The notes under the pieces were generated by a model that made no database searches, was not told the origin of the DNA, and saw nothing but the letters and a program-made list of their open reading frames with translations. Positions 149 to 31,370 of a DNA stretch of 44,285 nucleotides are shown one piece after another. The first letter of the stretch is position 1; the number at the start of each line of letters is the position of its first letter. The DNA is taken from NCBI GenBank assembly GCA_947311825.1, contig CAMZLY010000083.1:1-44285 (forward strand). Reading direction: 5' to 3'. The DNA comes from an uncultured bacterium (GTDB lineage: Bacteria; Verrucomicrobiota; Kiritimatiellia; UBA8416; CAMZLY01). The position numbers were made by a program, and so were the translations under genes.

Positions 149-1494
149 AATTGAAGAGGATTGCATTAGTAAATTTTAGAGGGTTTACAAAAATTGATAT
201 AGACTTCCACAATAATATAACCGTTATTGCAGGAGTCAATGGCAGTGGCAAATCCAGCATTCTCAAAGCTATTGCTGGGTTGGCCTCCTATCTTGTTCCA
301 GAAATATCACCTGCCAAGCGGAATGTGATTTCTTTCGATGATGATGATATTCAATACGGTGGACGTGCATTTAGTATAGACATGCAATTTAAGGGTGAAA
401 ATATTCAAACCTCCGCTCAGGTATTACGTTCTATACCTGATCCCCATAAAATTAAAGATTATCAGCAGGAGGTAGAAGATCTTCGAGCAAAGCGTCGTTT
501 TCTAAAAAAGGAATCAAAAGAAGATAATGATATTTTCGCACGTATTATAACCCTTGAACACATTTTGGGCGATAGTGAGGATGTTTTTATGCATCAGTCA
601 ATTCCAATTGAAGCCGCAACGGATAAGACCAAACCATCAGAATTGCTCGTTGTTCTTTATCCCACAAATCGCCATTTCACGAATCTTCCCACTCGCCTTG
701 CGGTTGTAAAAGCAACCACTACTTCAGATGCCTATGCAAATGCTTTACATGCAAAATCTATTTCGCTTAATGATTTTGCACATTGGTTTCGAGCCATAAA
801 GAATGGAAGCATAGGCAACGATGACTTCTGTAAAACTATTATTGAAATGCTTGAATCTACTATAGCCAACATGCTGCCTGGATTTCATAATCTAGATATA
901 GACACCACCCGCAAACCTCGTTTTACAATTGAAAAAGAGGGAAAACGATTAAGTTTAAATCAACTTTCAGACGGTGAACGCGGATTACTTGCTCTTGCTT
1001 TTGACCTGACTCGCCGACTAACAATTGCAAACCCAGAAAAAAAGAATCCTGTCCAAGAAGGCGAAGCCATTGTTTTAATTGATGAAACAGAATTACACCT
1101 GCATCCAAAGTGGCAACGTGAAGTGCTGAGGCGATTAACAACAACATTTAAGAACTGTCAGTTTATTGTGACAACTCATTCACCGCAAGTTATTGGAGAA
1201 GTTAAAGCCGGCAGCCTTAGACTCCTTTCAACAAATGAGAATAAGATTTTTGTTGAAACTCCCGGCATGGCCTACGGAACAGATTCAAACTGGATTCTTA
1301 ATGTCTTGATGGGTGGAAAAGATATGAATGCCGATGTTGAACAAGAATTAAATAACATTAATAAATGTATCTCCGAGAAAGAACTTGATACAGCAGAGAC
1401 TCTTATTCAGGCATTACGAGATAAAGTTGGCAATACGGTATCAATTCAGAAAGCATCTTCAATTATCGAAAGAATGAGGGTTCTAGGACGATGA
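145..1494 (+). CDS. ptuA: AAA/ABC-type ATPase, Septu PtuA-like
   Basis: Walker A GVNGSGKSS, signature LSDGERGLLALAFDL, Walker B IVLIDETELHLHP, H-loop TTHSPQ; next gene is a PtuB-like HNH protein. Confidence 0.8.
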   Translation: MKLKRIALVNFRGFTKIDIDFHNNITVIAGVNGSGKSSILKAIAGLASYLVPEISPAKRNVISFDDDDIQYGGRAFSIDMQFKGENIQTSAQVLRSIPDPHKIKDYQQEVEDLRAKRRFLKKESKEDNDIFARIITLEHILGDSEDVFMHQSIPIEAATDKTKPSELLVVLYPTNRHFTNLPTRLAVVKATTTSDAYANALHAKSISLNDFAHWFRAIKNGSIGNDDFCKTIIEMLESTIANMLPGFHNLDIDTTRKPRFTIEKEGKRLSLNQLSDGERGLLALAFDLTRRLTIANPEKKNPVQEGEAIVLIDETELHLHPKWQREVLRRLTTTFKNCQFIVTTHSPQVIGEVKAGSLRLLSTNENKIFVETPGMAYGTDSNWILNVLMGGKDMNADVEQELNNINKCISEKELDTAETLIQALRDKVGNTVSIQKASSIIERMRVLGR

Positions 1495-18396: not shown

Positions 18397-19110
18397 CTAA
18401 GCCCTGCAAAGACGGGTTATAAAATCACTTTGTCTAAGAACAACAAATGCAATTATCCCGGTAAGTACACCACCAGCATGACAAATCGTTAGTGGCGTTC
18501 CCACATCACCAAGGTGTAAAAAAGCAAACATAACTTTACCTGTTAATACCTCTATAATACTTTTTATGACTACTACCCACAGTCCAATTATTCCTATACG
18601 CTGTAATTTAATATCAGCCGATGATGTAGCAATCTCTAATGCACTCACCGCCATCAGACCATGTGCTATACCGGATAATCCACAAAGGCCTCCGTCAAAT
18701 ATTTCCGGTGATAACATCGAAATCCCAAGGCTACCTATCGCACAAAAAACCACATACAAAACTCGCTTTAACCAAGACGGCTCTAATATTCCGTGATACA
18801 AAAGCATAAACGCACCTACATCAAGCAATAAATGATACCAGGAAACATGGATGAAAGGATAAGTTATAACCCGCCACCATTCCCCCGCACCAACCTCTGC
18901 CGGGGAAAAAATATAATTATAAAACTGATGACCAAAGAGCATCGGAATATTAATTATACAAATCACCGCCAGGAACAACCAAAGTTCTAAGCGATGAATT
19001 ATTTTATCAGTAAAAAAGTTTTTTGCTATCGTTTTCATTTTTGTATCCAGTGAGATTTTTGTGACAGAATCATCTTTTTTTTGAGTATGCGGGCGATCTC
19101 TCGCCCACAC
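18397..19110 (-). CDS. Rhomboid-family intramembrane serine protease, rhombosortase-like
   Basis: Multi-TM protein with GLCGLSGIAHGL (GxSG-xxHG) and C-terminal CHAGGVLTG; neighbour carries a Gly-rich/TM/basic C-terminal tail. Initiator may be internal (MKTIAKNF). Confidence 0.8.
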   Translation of the reverse strand: MWARDRPHTQKKDDSVTKISLDTKMKTIAKNFFTDKIIHRLELWLFLAVICIINIPMLFGHQFYNYIFSPAEVGAGEWWRVITYPFIHVSWYHLLLDVGAFMLLYHGILEPSWLKRVLYVVFCAIGSLGISMLSPEIFDGGLCGLSGIAHGLMAVSALEIATSSADIKLQRIGIIGLWVVVIKSIIEVLTGKVMFAFLHLGDVGTPLTICHAGGVLTGIIAFVVLRQSDFITRLCRA

Positions 19111-19121
19111 ACTCGGATAAT

Positions 19122-21215
19122 CTATCCACGTATTTGTTTCTTCTTTCTGTTCATCCAGGCAACTGCACCAAGAAAGATCAACCCCACCGGGCCTGTTCCG
19201 GGCGATAAATTTCTTCTACGTCTATGTGATGATTTATGCGGCTGACTAGTCTGCTGTGTCTGCCGAACTTGTTGTTGCTGTGTTGCCGGAACATTATTAG
19301 CAACCTGCTGCACGCTTTCTACGTCACGGGCTTCCTGTGGTCCAATATCAGATGATGCCATACGACGTGCTTCATCAAGGCTGTCACGTAACTGTTTCTG
19401 CGCATTACGATCACGTTTTATTCTTCTCTGATTGAGTCTTTTTATTTTCCAGCGTTTATATTCGTTGTCATTTTCCAGCACTAGAAATGATGTATATTCA
19501 GTTACTATCGAATACATCTCGCCCAATGATACTACCTGAGCAGTAACAGAATCTCTACTACCGTTTCTATCAGCCATTTTTAATAAGCTATCTATTCGTT
19601 TCCATGCCCACATACGCTCAACCTCCGGATTATCATCGTTCGTTGCCGGAAAGTTGAATGTTTGATTCATAGTTAAGGCAACCCCTTGAATATCTGCATT
19701 CAGTTTAACTTTTGTTTTCCCGTTGCCTTTATAGCGACCATAAACTCTAATTGGTGCACCGTAATATAAGTTAGGCAATATCTTAGGTTCGACATCATAG
19801 ACCTTGATTCCTTCGAATCTAACATCAAGATCAGTTGCTGCCGGATGTATAAGCTTACGTCTGAACGCATCTGCCATTCTTGCAAAATTGCTTCCTCTTG
19901 AAATAAACTCGGCAATCCCGCCGGAGTCCTTTGCCATCTGCTGAAGTAATGGGCGGTTAACATTATTACCAACACCAATACAGAATACACGTGCATTACG
20001 AGGTCTGGCTTTTATTCTATTGAGCAATATTTTTCTTTCACGTTGTTCAGTCATACCATCACTAAGAATCACTACGTTCAAAGTGCGGTCTGGGTCTGCA
20101 TATTTATATGCAACCGACATTGCCGGATCAAGAACTGTTCCGCCTCTAGCTTTTTGCGATGACATAAAATCAACTGCCGCCACAATGTTTTCTGCTGTAG
20201 CATTTTGAAGCGATCCAAAATGTGCATTTGGTTTTATGTTAAATGTCATAACATCAAAACGATCATCTCTGCTTAACGACTTAATAAAGCTCGCAACAGA
20301 ATTTTTTGACATTGCCAATTTACGGTCATTGCCCATGCTACCGGATATATCAATCAGAAAAACATAGTCCATGCCGGTATCTAGCTTGCCGAGATCTTCA
20401 CCAGCTGTAACTGTCATGCAAAAGTATCCATCTTCACCGGATTCTTTCGATGTAATCAAATCCATCCCGCTTTTCGGACGCATCATTTCACAAGCAAGCA
20501 CAACATCACGATTCAACTCGCCGCCGGTAGTTTCCAAGCTAGCTTGATAGTATGAGTCTGAATGCCCAACAATAATAAAGTCATCAGCATGGCTTGAACT
20601 TTCAACCTGCTTGATGGGAACCTCAGATTTAATTTCAAATGTGATTGCAAATTTTCCGTGTGTTTGCGAATCAACATTAGCTTTAGCTGTTGTTGCCAAT
20701 GGATAGACGTAATTTATCCAATCGTGATCAAAATCCATTTCCTGATAATATGTAATTTCAACCTTCTGTTCAGCACCGGCAGCAATCGGGAATATACGCA
20801 TCTCAAACGTTTTATAATCCATCTGCTCCAGCAAACCAGGATCACGTTTCTTTACCTTATAACTATTATATATCTCGCGTGCCCGTTTCTTCTCCAAGAC
20901 TTCACCTATCATTTCCTTGCCATTTATCCACATGCTGAAATTGGCAACTGATGCTCCTTTTGGCACAGGAAACGTATATAACGCTTCCACTTGCCTCTTC
21001 TCGGTATTCTTAAATACCTGAGTAACCTTCGTGACAGCAATTCCGTTATTGATGGTGACTTTTACATCATGCTCAACAATCTCAAGCACGCCGCCCAAAC
21101 CTCCATCTGCGATAAGAAGCCCTGCCGCATTACTACTGCAAGCTCCAAATTCTGTAGCCGTTATAACCAATGCTACTACCAACGCCTTCCATCCTACTAC
21201 TTTCCTCTTCATCAT
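19122..21215 (-). CDS. VIT + von Willebrand factor A domain exported protein with C-terminal sorting-like tail
   Basis: N-terminal hydrophobic segment, VIT-like KVTQVFKNTEKRQVEALYTFPVPKGASV, MIDAS DISGSMG, tail SPGTGPVGLIFLGAVAWMNRKKKQIRG. Confidence 0.9.
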   Translation of the reverse strand: MMKRKVVGWKALVVALVITATEFGACSSNAAGLLIADGGLGGVLEIVEHDVKVTINNGIAVTKVTQVFKNTEKRQVEALYTFPVPKGASVANFSMWINGKEMIGEVLEKKRAREIYNSYKVKKRDPGLLEQMDYKTFEMRIFPIAAGAEQKVEITYYQEMDFDHDWINYVYPLATTAKANVDSQTHGKFAITFEIKSEVPIKQVESSSHADDFIIVGHSDSYYQASLETTGGELNRDVVLACEMMRPKSGMDLITSKESGEDGYFCMTVTAGEDLGKLDTGMDYVFLIDISGSMGNDRKLAMSKNSVASFIKSLSRDDRFDVMTFNIKPNAHFGSLQNATAENIVAAVDFMSSQKARGGTVLDPAMSVAYKYADPDRTLNVVILSDGMTEQRERKILLNRIKARPRNARVFCIGVGNNVNRPLLQQMAKDSGGIAEFISRGSNFARMADAFRRKLIHPAATDLDVRFEGIKVYDVEPKILPNLYYGAPIRVYGRYKGNGKTKVKLNADIQGVALTMNQTFNFPATNDDNPEVERMWAWKRIDSLLKMADRNGSRDSVTAQVVSLGEMYSIVTEYTSFLVLENDNEYKRWKIKRLNQRRIKRDRNAQKQLRDSLDEARRMASSDIGPQEARDVESVQQVANNVPATQQQQVRQTQQTSQPHKSSHRRRRNLSPGTGPVGLIFLGAVAWMNRKKKQIRG

Positions 21216-21279
21216 CCTACCCTCCTAATGTGAGCCTGCACGCCATTCGTGCAGTTTAACTCACACGCCTACCTCTATC

Positions 21280-21295
21280 GCAAAGAGCGTGCCAA
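21280..21295 (-). promoter_or_regulatory. Sigma-54 (-24/-12) promoter for the VIT/vWA gene
   Basis: Minus strand TTGGCACGCTCTTTGC = TTGGCACG-N4-TTGC, GG-N10-GC spacing, 65 bp before the ATG at 21215, RBS-like GGAGGG before the ATG. Confidence 0.8.
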
Positions 21296-21374
21296 CCCTA
21301 CGGCAAAATATAAGTACCTTTATATCAACATGTTAGACATTTGGCATATAATTTATTAAAACATCTATAGACTT

Positions 21375-21399
21375 ACAATGTATATTGATGCTACATTGT
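21375..21399. promoter_or_regulatory. Inverted repeat ACAATGTA-N9-TACATTGT, candidate activator (UAS) site
   Basis: Perfect 8-bp arms located ~80-120 bp upstream of the sigma-54 promoter and just before the activator gene. Confidence 0.6.
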
Positions 21400-21403
21400 T
21401 TGT

Positions 21404-22903
21404 ATGAGAAATAAAAAAATATTATCGGACAATGACCGCCACTTCTTTGAACTTGTGACCGAGTCGACATTTGCTAATCCCTTCAGCAATGAGCGAGAAG
21501 AGTTAAATCAAAAAATTCTGAAACTATCGCCAACCATAGACAAAAAAGAGGCAATTGAGCAGATTATGGCGGCATTATCTTTACGATTAAACAAATTACG
21601 TAAGAATAATGCGGATAATATCAACAGTTACAGCCATGCAGACAGCAAACTGCTCAAATTTGCCATTCTATTTGACCTATTTCATCAATATTGTCAGCAA
21701 TTCGATGATCACATTCTCGCACAAGCATCAGAGCCAGCTGTCAATCTGCCATTATCATTTGCAAATGAAATGATGCAAGCAATGACAAAACATGGAATAT
21801 CTGAAAGAGAAGCACTGCACTATTTTGCACTTTCCTATCAGGTACGCCGTGCGTTCTTCTTTATAAATGGTAGCCTGCTCGGTACATCAGAATCTATGCG
21901 TCACTTACGCAAGCAACTCTGGAACAATATTTTTACCTGTGACGTGCACCGCTACATGGAATCCATGTGGAATCGTATGGAAGATTTCTCAACACTGTTA
22001 CTTGGCGGTACAGGAACCGGCAAAGGAACAGCGGCAGCCGCTATTGGACGATCGGGTTATATTCCATTTGATAAAAAAAACAACTTCTTTACAGAATCAT
22101 TTACGACATCTTTTGTATCGCTTAACCTGTCCCAGTTTCCTGAATCACTGATTGAATCAGAAATATTCGGTCATCGAAAAGGAGCATTTACCGGTGCCAT
22201 AGATAATCATAAAGGAATTTTCTCACGCTGCAGTGAACATGGTGCCATTTTTCTTGATGAAATAGGAGACGTTACCATTCCTGTTCAGATTAAATTGCTT
22301 CAAGTATTGCAAGAACGAACCTTCTCCCCTGTCGGTAGTCATAGCACAGAAAACTTTAAAGGCCGCGTCATAGCGGCAACTAACAGACCACTTGACAATT
22401 TGCGTACTAAAGGAGTTTTTCGAGATGATTTCTATTATAGACTTTGCTCAGACGAGATTACCGTTCCATCATTACATCAGCGGATTATGGAAGATGAAAA
22501 TGAATTAAAAATACTTCTCAGTCATATTCTAAAAAAATTACTCGGCGACAATGCAGAGAACTTTCTATCGCAAACCTTGAGCACAATCATAAAAGACGTG
22601 GGCAAAGACTACAAATGGCCCGGCAACGTTCGAGAGTTAGAACAGGCAACTCGCCGGATACTTCTAAACGGTCATTATCGAGGTGATACCGCAGAAAAAC
22701 CCGATAACACAAAAAACAACCTACTTACCAATATAGACGATGGGGCACTTAATGCCGACGAACTTATAACCGAATACTGCAAAATGCTATATAAGCGACA
22801 TCCAACTTACGGAGAAGTTGCACGCCACACCGGACTAGACTGGCGTACAGTTAAAAAATATATAGCCGCAAAAGAACGCAAGGAGCCCAAACATTTCTAT
22901 TAA
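21404..22903 (+). CDS. Sigma-54-dependent transcriptional activator (AAA+ bEBP) with uncharacterised N-terminal domain
   Basis: GGTGTGKGTAA Walker A, ESEIFGHRKGAFTGA (sigma-54 contact), GAIFLDEIGD, R-finger region, C-terminal HTH. Confidence 0.93.
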   Translation: MRNKKILSDNDRHFFELVTESTFANPFSNEREELNQKILKLSPTIDKKEAIEQIMAALSLRLNKLRKNNADNINSYSHADSKLLKFAILFDLFHQYCQQFDDHILAQASEPAVNLPLSFANEMMQAMTKHGISEREALHYFALSYQVRRAFFFINGSLLGTSESMRHLRKQLWNNIFTCDVHRYMESMWNRMEDFSTLLLGGTGTGKGTAAAAIGRSGYIPFDKKNNFFTESFTTSFVSLNLSQFPESLIESEIFGHRKGAFTGAIDNHKGIFSRCSEHGAIFLDEIGDVTIPVQIKLLQVLQERTFSPVGSHSTENFKGRVIAATNRPLDNLRTKGVFRDDFYYRLCSDEITVPSLHQRIMEDENELKILLSHILKKLLGDNAENFLSQTLSTIIKDVGKDYKWPGNVRELEQATRRILLNGHYRGDTAEKPDNTKNNLLTNIDDGALNADELITEYCKMLYKRHPTYGEVARHTGLDWRTVKKYIAAKERKEPKHFY

Positions 22904-22906
22904 CTG

Positions 22907-23072
22907 GAGGTGCTTGCAAAACTACTGTGCGAGGCAATTTTTCGTGTTTTAGGCGAGCAAATTCTGCCTTTTGAACAATTGGAGCATACCCGTAGGGTCT
23001 GTAAAATTGCGAAAAAGCAGAATATGCCGCATAAAATCAAAAAGTGCCCGCAGATAGTTTTGCAAGTGCCTC
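22907..23072 (+). repeat. Dispersed near-palindromic intergenic element, copy 1
   Basis: gaggtgcttgcaaaactactgtgcgaggc...tagttttgcaagtgcctc; terminal inverted repeats; two other copies in window. Confidence 0.93.
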
Positions 23073-31203: not shown

Positions 31204-31370
31204 GAGGTGCTTGCAAAACTACTGTGCTAGGCGATTTTTTGTATTTTAGGCGAGCAGATTCTGTCTTTTGAGCAATTGGAGCATACCCGTAGGGTCTGTA
31301 AAATTGCGAAAAAGCGGAATATGCCGCATGAAATCAAAAAAGTGCCCGCAGATAGTTTTGCAAGTGCCTC
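31204..31370 (+). repeat. Dispersed near-palindromic intergenic element, copy 2
   Basis: Closely matches copy 1 end to end, between convergent cvfB and TPR gene. Confidence 0.93.

Follow-up and report, generated by a model that had tools for sequence, protein, structure and literature searches.

Genes and features of the locus

The window, that is, the whole stretch of 44,285 nucleotides that was analysed, carries a gene for a VIT and vWA surface protein and a rhombosortase gene on the minus strand, and a sigma-54 activator (bEBP) gene that is divergent from them (Table 1). The same three gene assignments had been made in an earlier sequence-only reading of this DNA, and profile searches agree with them. 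The rhombosortase gene follows the vWA gene after 11 bases on the same strand, and the two are presumed to share one operon. At its C-terminus, the vWA protein has a tail of GTGPVG, a hydrophobic segment, and RKKK that resembles a rhombosortase sorting signal. This tail is conserved in the linked homologs; the GlyGly-CTERM model was not among the NCBIfam hits. Readable tails of other vWA proteins under predicted sigma-54 control are of the G-x-GPVGPLF type or glycine-rich, with a basic end. The three inspected vWA paralogs without regulatory sites (L076-L078) are without such a tail. The vWA proteins of L071 and L072 retain it; their genomes (G162 and G168) carry the activator, and in G168 the activator gene stands at the head of that run.

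Elsewhere in the window, the 795-aa open frame has no Pfam match. The 166-bp near-perfect palindromic repeat, present twice, is a MITE-like or large-hairpin dispersed element; its DNA fold is -48 kcal/mol (z -9.9), and at least 40 copies, 91-100% identical, are present in the genome (40 scored of 194 first-look candidates).

Table 1. Positions of genes, regulatory sites, and other features in the window
Feature	Position	Strand	Basis
Rhombosortase	18397..19110	-	TIGR03902, 87.6 bits (89.1 in another search), cut-off 84
VIT + vWA surface protein, 697 aa, C-terminal tail SPGTGPVGLIFLGAVAWMNRKKK	19122..21215	-	Domain profiles; tail conserved in sigma-54-linked homologs
Hairpin at 5' end of predicted vWA mRNA	21229..21266	-	
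Sigma-54 -24/-12 promoter TTGGCACGCTCTTTGC of vWA-rhombosortase	21280..21295	-	Exact match; strand and position conserved in relatives; rpoN in genome
Enhancer/operator dyad 1 (putative), ACTTACAATGT, RCAT-N3-ATGY with 1 mismatch	21371..21381	.	Tandem-dyad conservation, 22-bp spacing
Inverted repeat ACAATGTA-N9-TACATTGT	21375..21399	.	Exact; right half of dyad 1 and left half of dyad 2
Enhancer/operator dyad 2 (putative), ACATTGTTTGT, 1 mismatch	21393..21403	.	Tandem-dyad conservation, 22-bp spacing
Sigma-54 activator (bEBP), 499 aa	21404..22903	+	Pfam/NCBIfam, alignment, model pLDDT 90
Activator layout: N-terminal domain (all-helical, family unassigned); AAA+ with GAFTGA; C-terminal HTH	Residues 1-190; 193-421; ~451-492		
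166-bp near-perfect palindromic repeat	22907-23072 and 31204-31370		
Open frame, 795 aa	27671-30058	-	

Sigma-54 promoter upstream of the vWA gene

The minus strand from 21295 to 21280 reads TTGGCACG-CTCT-TTGC, which is a perfect -24/-12 element (GG-N10-GC) agreeing with the TGGCAC/TTGC consensus and places the predicted vWA transcription start at ~21268. The window holds a single perfect match to TGGCAC[GA]N4TTGC, where shuffles give 0.07 on average. With a weight matrix built from the textbook consensus, the element is the best site of the window at 17.6 bits, and the runner-up reaches 12.9. Across the genome, matches to the pattern with at most one mismatch are enriched (84 vs 25 for the reversed control pattern), and an rpoN gene scores 435.8 bits against a cut-off of 277; together, these two results make it very likely that this genome uses sigma-54 promoters. 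A sigma-54 promoter facing the vWA gene at this position had been called from the letters alone, and the exact match, the conserved strand and position, and the presence of rpoN make it a well supported prediction.

The predicted vWA mRNA can fold into a strong hairpin at its 5' end, TGTGAG-CTGCACG...CGTGCAG-CTCACA (-20.7 kcal/mol, z -3.95), immediately 5' of an AGGAGGG ribosome site. It is possibly an mRNA stabiliser or a control element.

The activator protein

The activator contains an AAA+ sigma-54 interaction domain (PF00158, 143.8 bits in Pfam) with Walker motifs and an HRKGAFTGA loop that is present in both the protein and the consensus. The C-terminal HTH is unmatched in the Pfam search, and is recognised from helices at residues 451-492 of the model and from conserved EVARRTGLDRRTVKKY in the alignment. 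Both GAFTGA and the HTH residues are kept across the family alignment, in which the invariant residues include N25, D101, Q146, R148, and R149. The AlphaFold2 models are confident, with a mean pLDDT of 90.0 (29 sequences) and 90.9 (20 sequences), and the whole protein finds known bEBP AAA+ structures in a Foldseek search of the PDB.

The N-terminus of ~190 aa has no match in Pfam families, PDB sequences, or PDB folds, and Foldseek of this domain against the PDB gives nothing below E = 1. Residues 9-188 form nine helices in the model, and domain searches find no V4R domain in the protein. Assignment to known families was tried and rejected. The PspF family model (TIGR02974) has a cut-off of 444 bits, and the protein, which has an extra N-terminal domain, scores 137. 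The NCBIfam RtcR equivalog scores 170 bits against a cut-off of 650; the PADLOC RtcR matches miss the N-terminal domain, which as an all-helical region without a PDB match does not fit an RtcR/CARF assignment. In the sources searched, all readable without subscription, the activator family, its sensor domain, and its operator code appear to be undescribed.

The putative tandem-dyad operator

In the aligned upstream regions of activator genes, the conserved putative operator is a pair of RCAT-N3-ATGY dyads in tandem, 22 bp apart, with the consensus nATnGACATnnAATGnATAnnTnATATACATTnTATGTATG. The sequence-only reading had proposed an upstream activator site here in the form of the inverted repeat ACAATGTA-N9-TACATTGT. 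The upstream place and the normal activator distance stand, while the parse does not: the repeat is not conserved in relatives, and the true unit is the two tandem dyads. No other match to the repeat with at most three mismatches occurs in the window. Perfect 8-bp inverted repeats with a gap of 3-20 number 29 in the window vs 10-24 in six shuffles, and the 188-bp intergenic region has 1 vs 0.07 in shuffles, which is modestly unusual. Since such repeats are ordinary in the window, the repeat alone is weak evidence, and it is conservation that makes the case.

A scan of spacings from 12 to 44 bp over the loci of the activator family singles out 22 bp, with a mean best score of 12.78; the next is 11.72 at 13 bp, other spacings give 10.4-11.3, and shuffles give 10.03 (sd 0.13). 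The motif was first seen by eye in the same loci that were scored, so loci outside the motif definition are the fairer tests. Sixteen distant activator loci of this kind exceed their shuffles (10.97 vs 9.74, sd 0.21), with spacings of 21 and 22 bp tied. Three vWA loci that have no activator gene on the contig, L063 (TACATAAAATGTCTATTTAGTATACATAAAATGTACA), L067, and L091, carry perfect or near-perfect tandem dyads with a -24/-12 element at 106-108 bp. Among the three genomes with such a contig, G094 and G339 encode an activator of the family elsewhere, and none was found in G018, whose genome is 79% complete and has both the dyads and the promoter.

Among 30 vWA homologs, 12 have dyads and a sigma-54 element, two have the sigma-54 element only, none has dyads only, and 16 have neither (Fisher p 1e-6, uncorrected for relatedness, which inflates the significance). 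The activator family is absent from the ten tested genomes with a site-less vWA gene. Several activator loci are without clear dyads, and none were seen at L168 and L169 at the threshold used. Sequence by itself shows the promoter, the dyads at 22 bp, their conservation, and their presence at trans targets.

Conservation and predicted targets in relatives

Full-length relatives of the activator with 31-56% identity are found in about 28 of the 95 relatives searched, and 71 of 388 genomes sampled from the phylum have the N-terminal domain. The vWA gene is divergent from the activator gene at six loci of the first set (L038, L048, L051, L054, L057, and L058), at four more (L068, L069, L074, and L081), and at six distant ones (L153, L155, L158, and L160-L162). 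TGGCAYG-N4-TGC lies on the vWA strand, 109-155 bp from the activator gene, in the first seven vWA loci including the window. Whatever the partner gene, 26 of 34 activator loci carry a -24/-12 element of at least 11 bits, 60-260 bp upstream on the divergent strand, compared with 1/34 on the activator strand and 0/34 in reversed sequence; the other eight are without a good element. The control of the vWA gene by the divergent activator, as suggested earlier, gains support from these 26 loci and from the dyads at trans vWA genes. The predicted switch of activator, paired sites, and sigma-54 promoter recurs as a conserved unit across a phylum, and the window locus is one example of a portable module.

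Two further observations concern the neighbours of the activator gene. A DJ-1/PfpI-family gene follows it in the same orientation at five loci (L047, L049, L052, L055, and L060), those of the other four being 71-89% identical to that of L047; it may be a co-regulator or a signal enzyme. In a Desulfarculaceae MAG (L031 1-7467), an activator relative adjoins a divergent giant polyketide/PUFA-synthase-like gene, its function read by eye, and no clear -24/-12 element occurs within 400 bp upstream of the activator gene.

The divergent operons in relatives are assembled from a common pool of genes, which encode an acyl-[ACP]-phospholipid O-acyltransferase (LplT-Aas-type; NF006386, 1378 bits vs 1221), a hydrolase, B12 and SPASM-like radical SAM proteins, a methyltransferase, the vWA protein, and rhombosortase. 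The activator at L225 is divergent from a single run of acyltransferase, hydrolase, vWA, and rhombosortase genes, and the L165 run comprises vWA, rhombosortase, and acyltransferase. These partner genes suggest a signal linked to the envelope or membrane-lipid state, and the module may serve envelope remodelling or a membrane-lipid response.

The sequence-only reading saw the surface-protein/sortase module as being under one dedicated regulator. Among the places inspected in the window genome (C207 and C210 left out), there is no convincing second target with dyads and a -24/-12 element at a suitable distance, so the word dedicated may hold locally. Dyad matches with at most two mismatches, both strands counted, number 88 in this genome vs 42 for the control pattern. 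In relatives the description is too narrow, as operons for a phospholipid acyltransferase, a hydrolase, and radical-SAM enzymes also lie under the same regulator family, and the vWA gene can be a trans target.

Predicted regulation of the activator gene

Dyad 1 overlaps the expected -35 region of the activator promoter, and dyad 2, which abuts the start codon, shares bases with a -10-like TACATT (21392-21397). In 15 of 23 aligned loci, the window included, the ATG lies directly 3' of dyad 2. TTGACA is often inside dyad 1 and TATACAT in dyad 2 at sigma-70 spacing; the window version is poor (TAGACT-N18-TACATT). The position of dyad 2 directly before the ATG leaves no room for a ribosome site, and none is seen there, in contrast to the AGGAGGG of the vWA gene; the activator mRNA is thus probably leaderless. 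Because the dyads cover the -35, the -10, and the start of the gene, their occupation should block the activator promoter. Autoregulation, which had been proposed before, appears likely from the place of dyad 2, and it would be autorepression, as with PspF, here through an operator at the start codon.

Proposed mechanism and alternatives

We consider it likely, with good confidence, that the locus is a self-contained enhancer switch of the PspF type, in which the activator on the dyads turns on the vWA-rhombosortase pair and represses itself. The activator would bind both tandem dyads, whose centres precede the predicted vWA start by ~110 and ~130 bp, and would loop to RNA polymerase-sigma-54 at the -24/-12 element, where its AAA+ ring would open the promoter of the operon. 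Action from an upstream site on a sigma-54 promoter would fit the architecture of the loci. Once made, the vWA protein would have its C-terminal tail processed by rhombosortase. Dyad binding would also repress the activator gene, keeping the level of the activator low, with translation from a leaderless mRNA, and the signal would enter via the helical N-terminal domain.

It is unlikely that the -24/-12 element is real and driven by another sigma-54 activator, with the dyads being only an autoregulatory operator. The genome does contain nine matches to the activator and many other -24/-12 sites (the 84 vs 25 given above). Moreover, its acyltransferase gene lies on another contig with the -24/-12 element TTTGGCACAACTTATGCAATAT at C41 19384-19399 (L254 585-600), ~50-60 bp before the ATG, and no tandem dyads accompany it, so the acyltransferase may be served by another activator. 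Against this stand the tandem dyads with -24/-12 elements at vWA genes that have no adjacent activator gene, since autoregulation cannot explain those dyads.

Still less probable is that the conserved block before the activator gene is mainly a sigma-70 promoter (TTGACA ... TATACAT) serving a leaderless gene rather than an enhancer, the dyad symmetry being a by-product. TTGACA does recur at dyad 1 in many loci, as does TACATT six bases ahead of the ATG, but a -35/-10 promoter does not require the conservation of the right half (ATGY) that both dyads show, and the 22-bp spacing is also found at the vWA promoters of L063, L067, and L091, which have no neighbouring activator start. Many dimeric regulators could use such palindromes, but binding by a third protein such as a TetR-like repressor is very improbable: none of the analyses points to one, the sites track the activator family, the HTH of that family is conserved, and genomes that do not encode the family are without sites at vWA.

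Under the preferred reading of an activator that works from the dyads, the rule of tandem RCAT-N3-ATGY dyads 22 bp apart plus a -24/-12 element would make it possible to predict which genes an entire, uncharacterised family of activators controls. The rule would also link rhombosortase surface proteins to sigma-54 control; no paper naming both rhombosortase and sigma-54 was found in literature readable without subscription. For the unassigned sensor domain, the signal would be sought via the shared phospholipid acyltransferase and surface-protein targets. A wider reading is conceivable, although we lean against it: a phylum-wide, undescribed envelope-stress regulon, in which an activator family with a new helical sensor fold would read a fixed 22-bp tandem-dyad code, one that is also its start-codon operator on a leaderless mRNA, and would jointly control phospholipid re-acylation and rhombosortase-anchored VIT-vWA proteins.

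Comparison with known systems

The type of circuit is known and is of the PspF/XylR kind. XylR/DmpR-type activators carry a V4R aromatic-sensing domain, and their genes are divergent from a sigma-54 operon. The window activator has the same divergent layout, and V4R is not found in it. MphR is another divergent example according to the available text of PMC3063778. One-component EBPs of Desulfovibrio vulgaris have genes beside their sigma-54 promoters and half sites of the TGT/ACA type; unlike the window family, a tandem 22-bp dyad rule is not described for them in the available text of PMC4641369. In dedicated rhombosortase (GlyGly-CTERM) systems, rhombosortase lies beside a single target, and VIT/vWA proteins with GlyGly-CTERM are known; the gene adjacency is like that of the window pair, and regulation is not described in the available text of PMC3237569.

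The window activator shares with PspF the two sites between its own promoter and a divergent sigma-54 target, together with the predicted self-repression. To our knowledge, PspF is without an N-terminal input domain. It is held off by PspA, and the window activator instead has the helical N-terminal domain of ~190 aa. In the available text of PMC3709507, the two UAS sites of Escherichia coli PspF lie in the pspA-pspF intergenic region between its own sigma-70 promoter and the sigma-54 target, and PspF activates the target and represses itself (there citing Jovanovic et al. 1997). The window module differs in that its dyads abut the start codon, and in that the predicted targets across its family are the vWA/rhombosortase pair and lipid genes.
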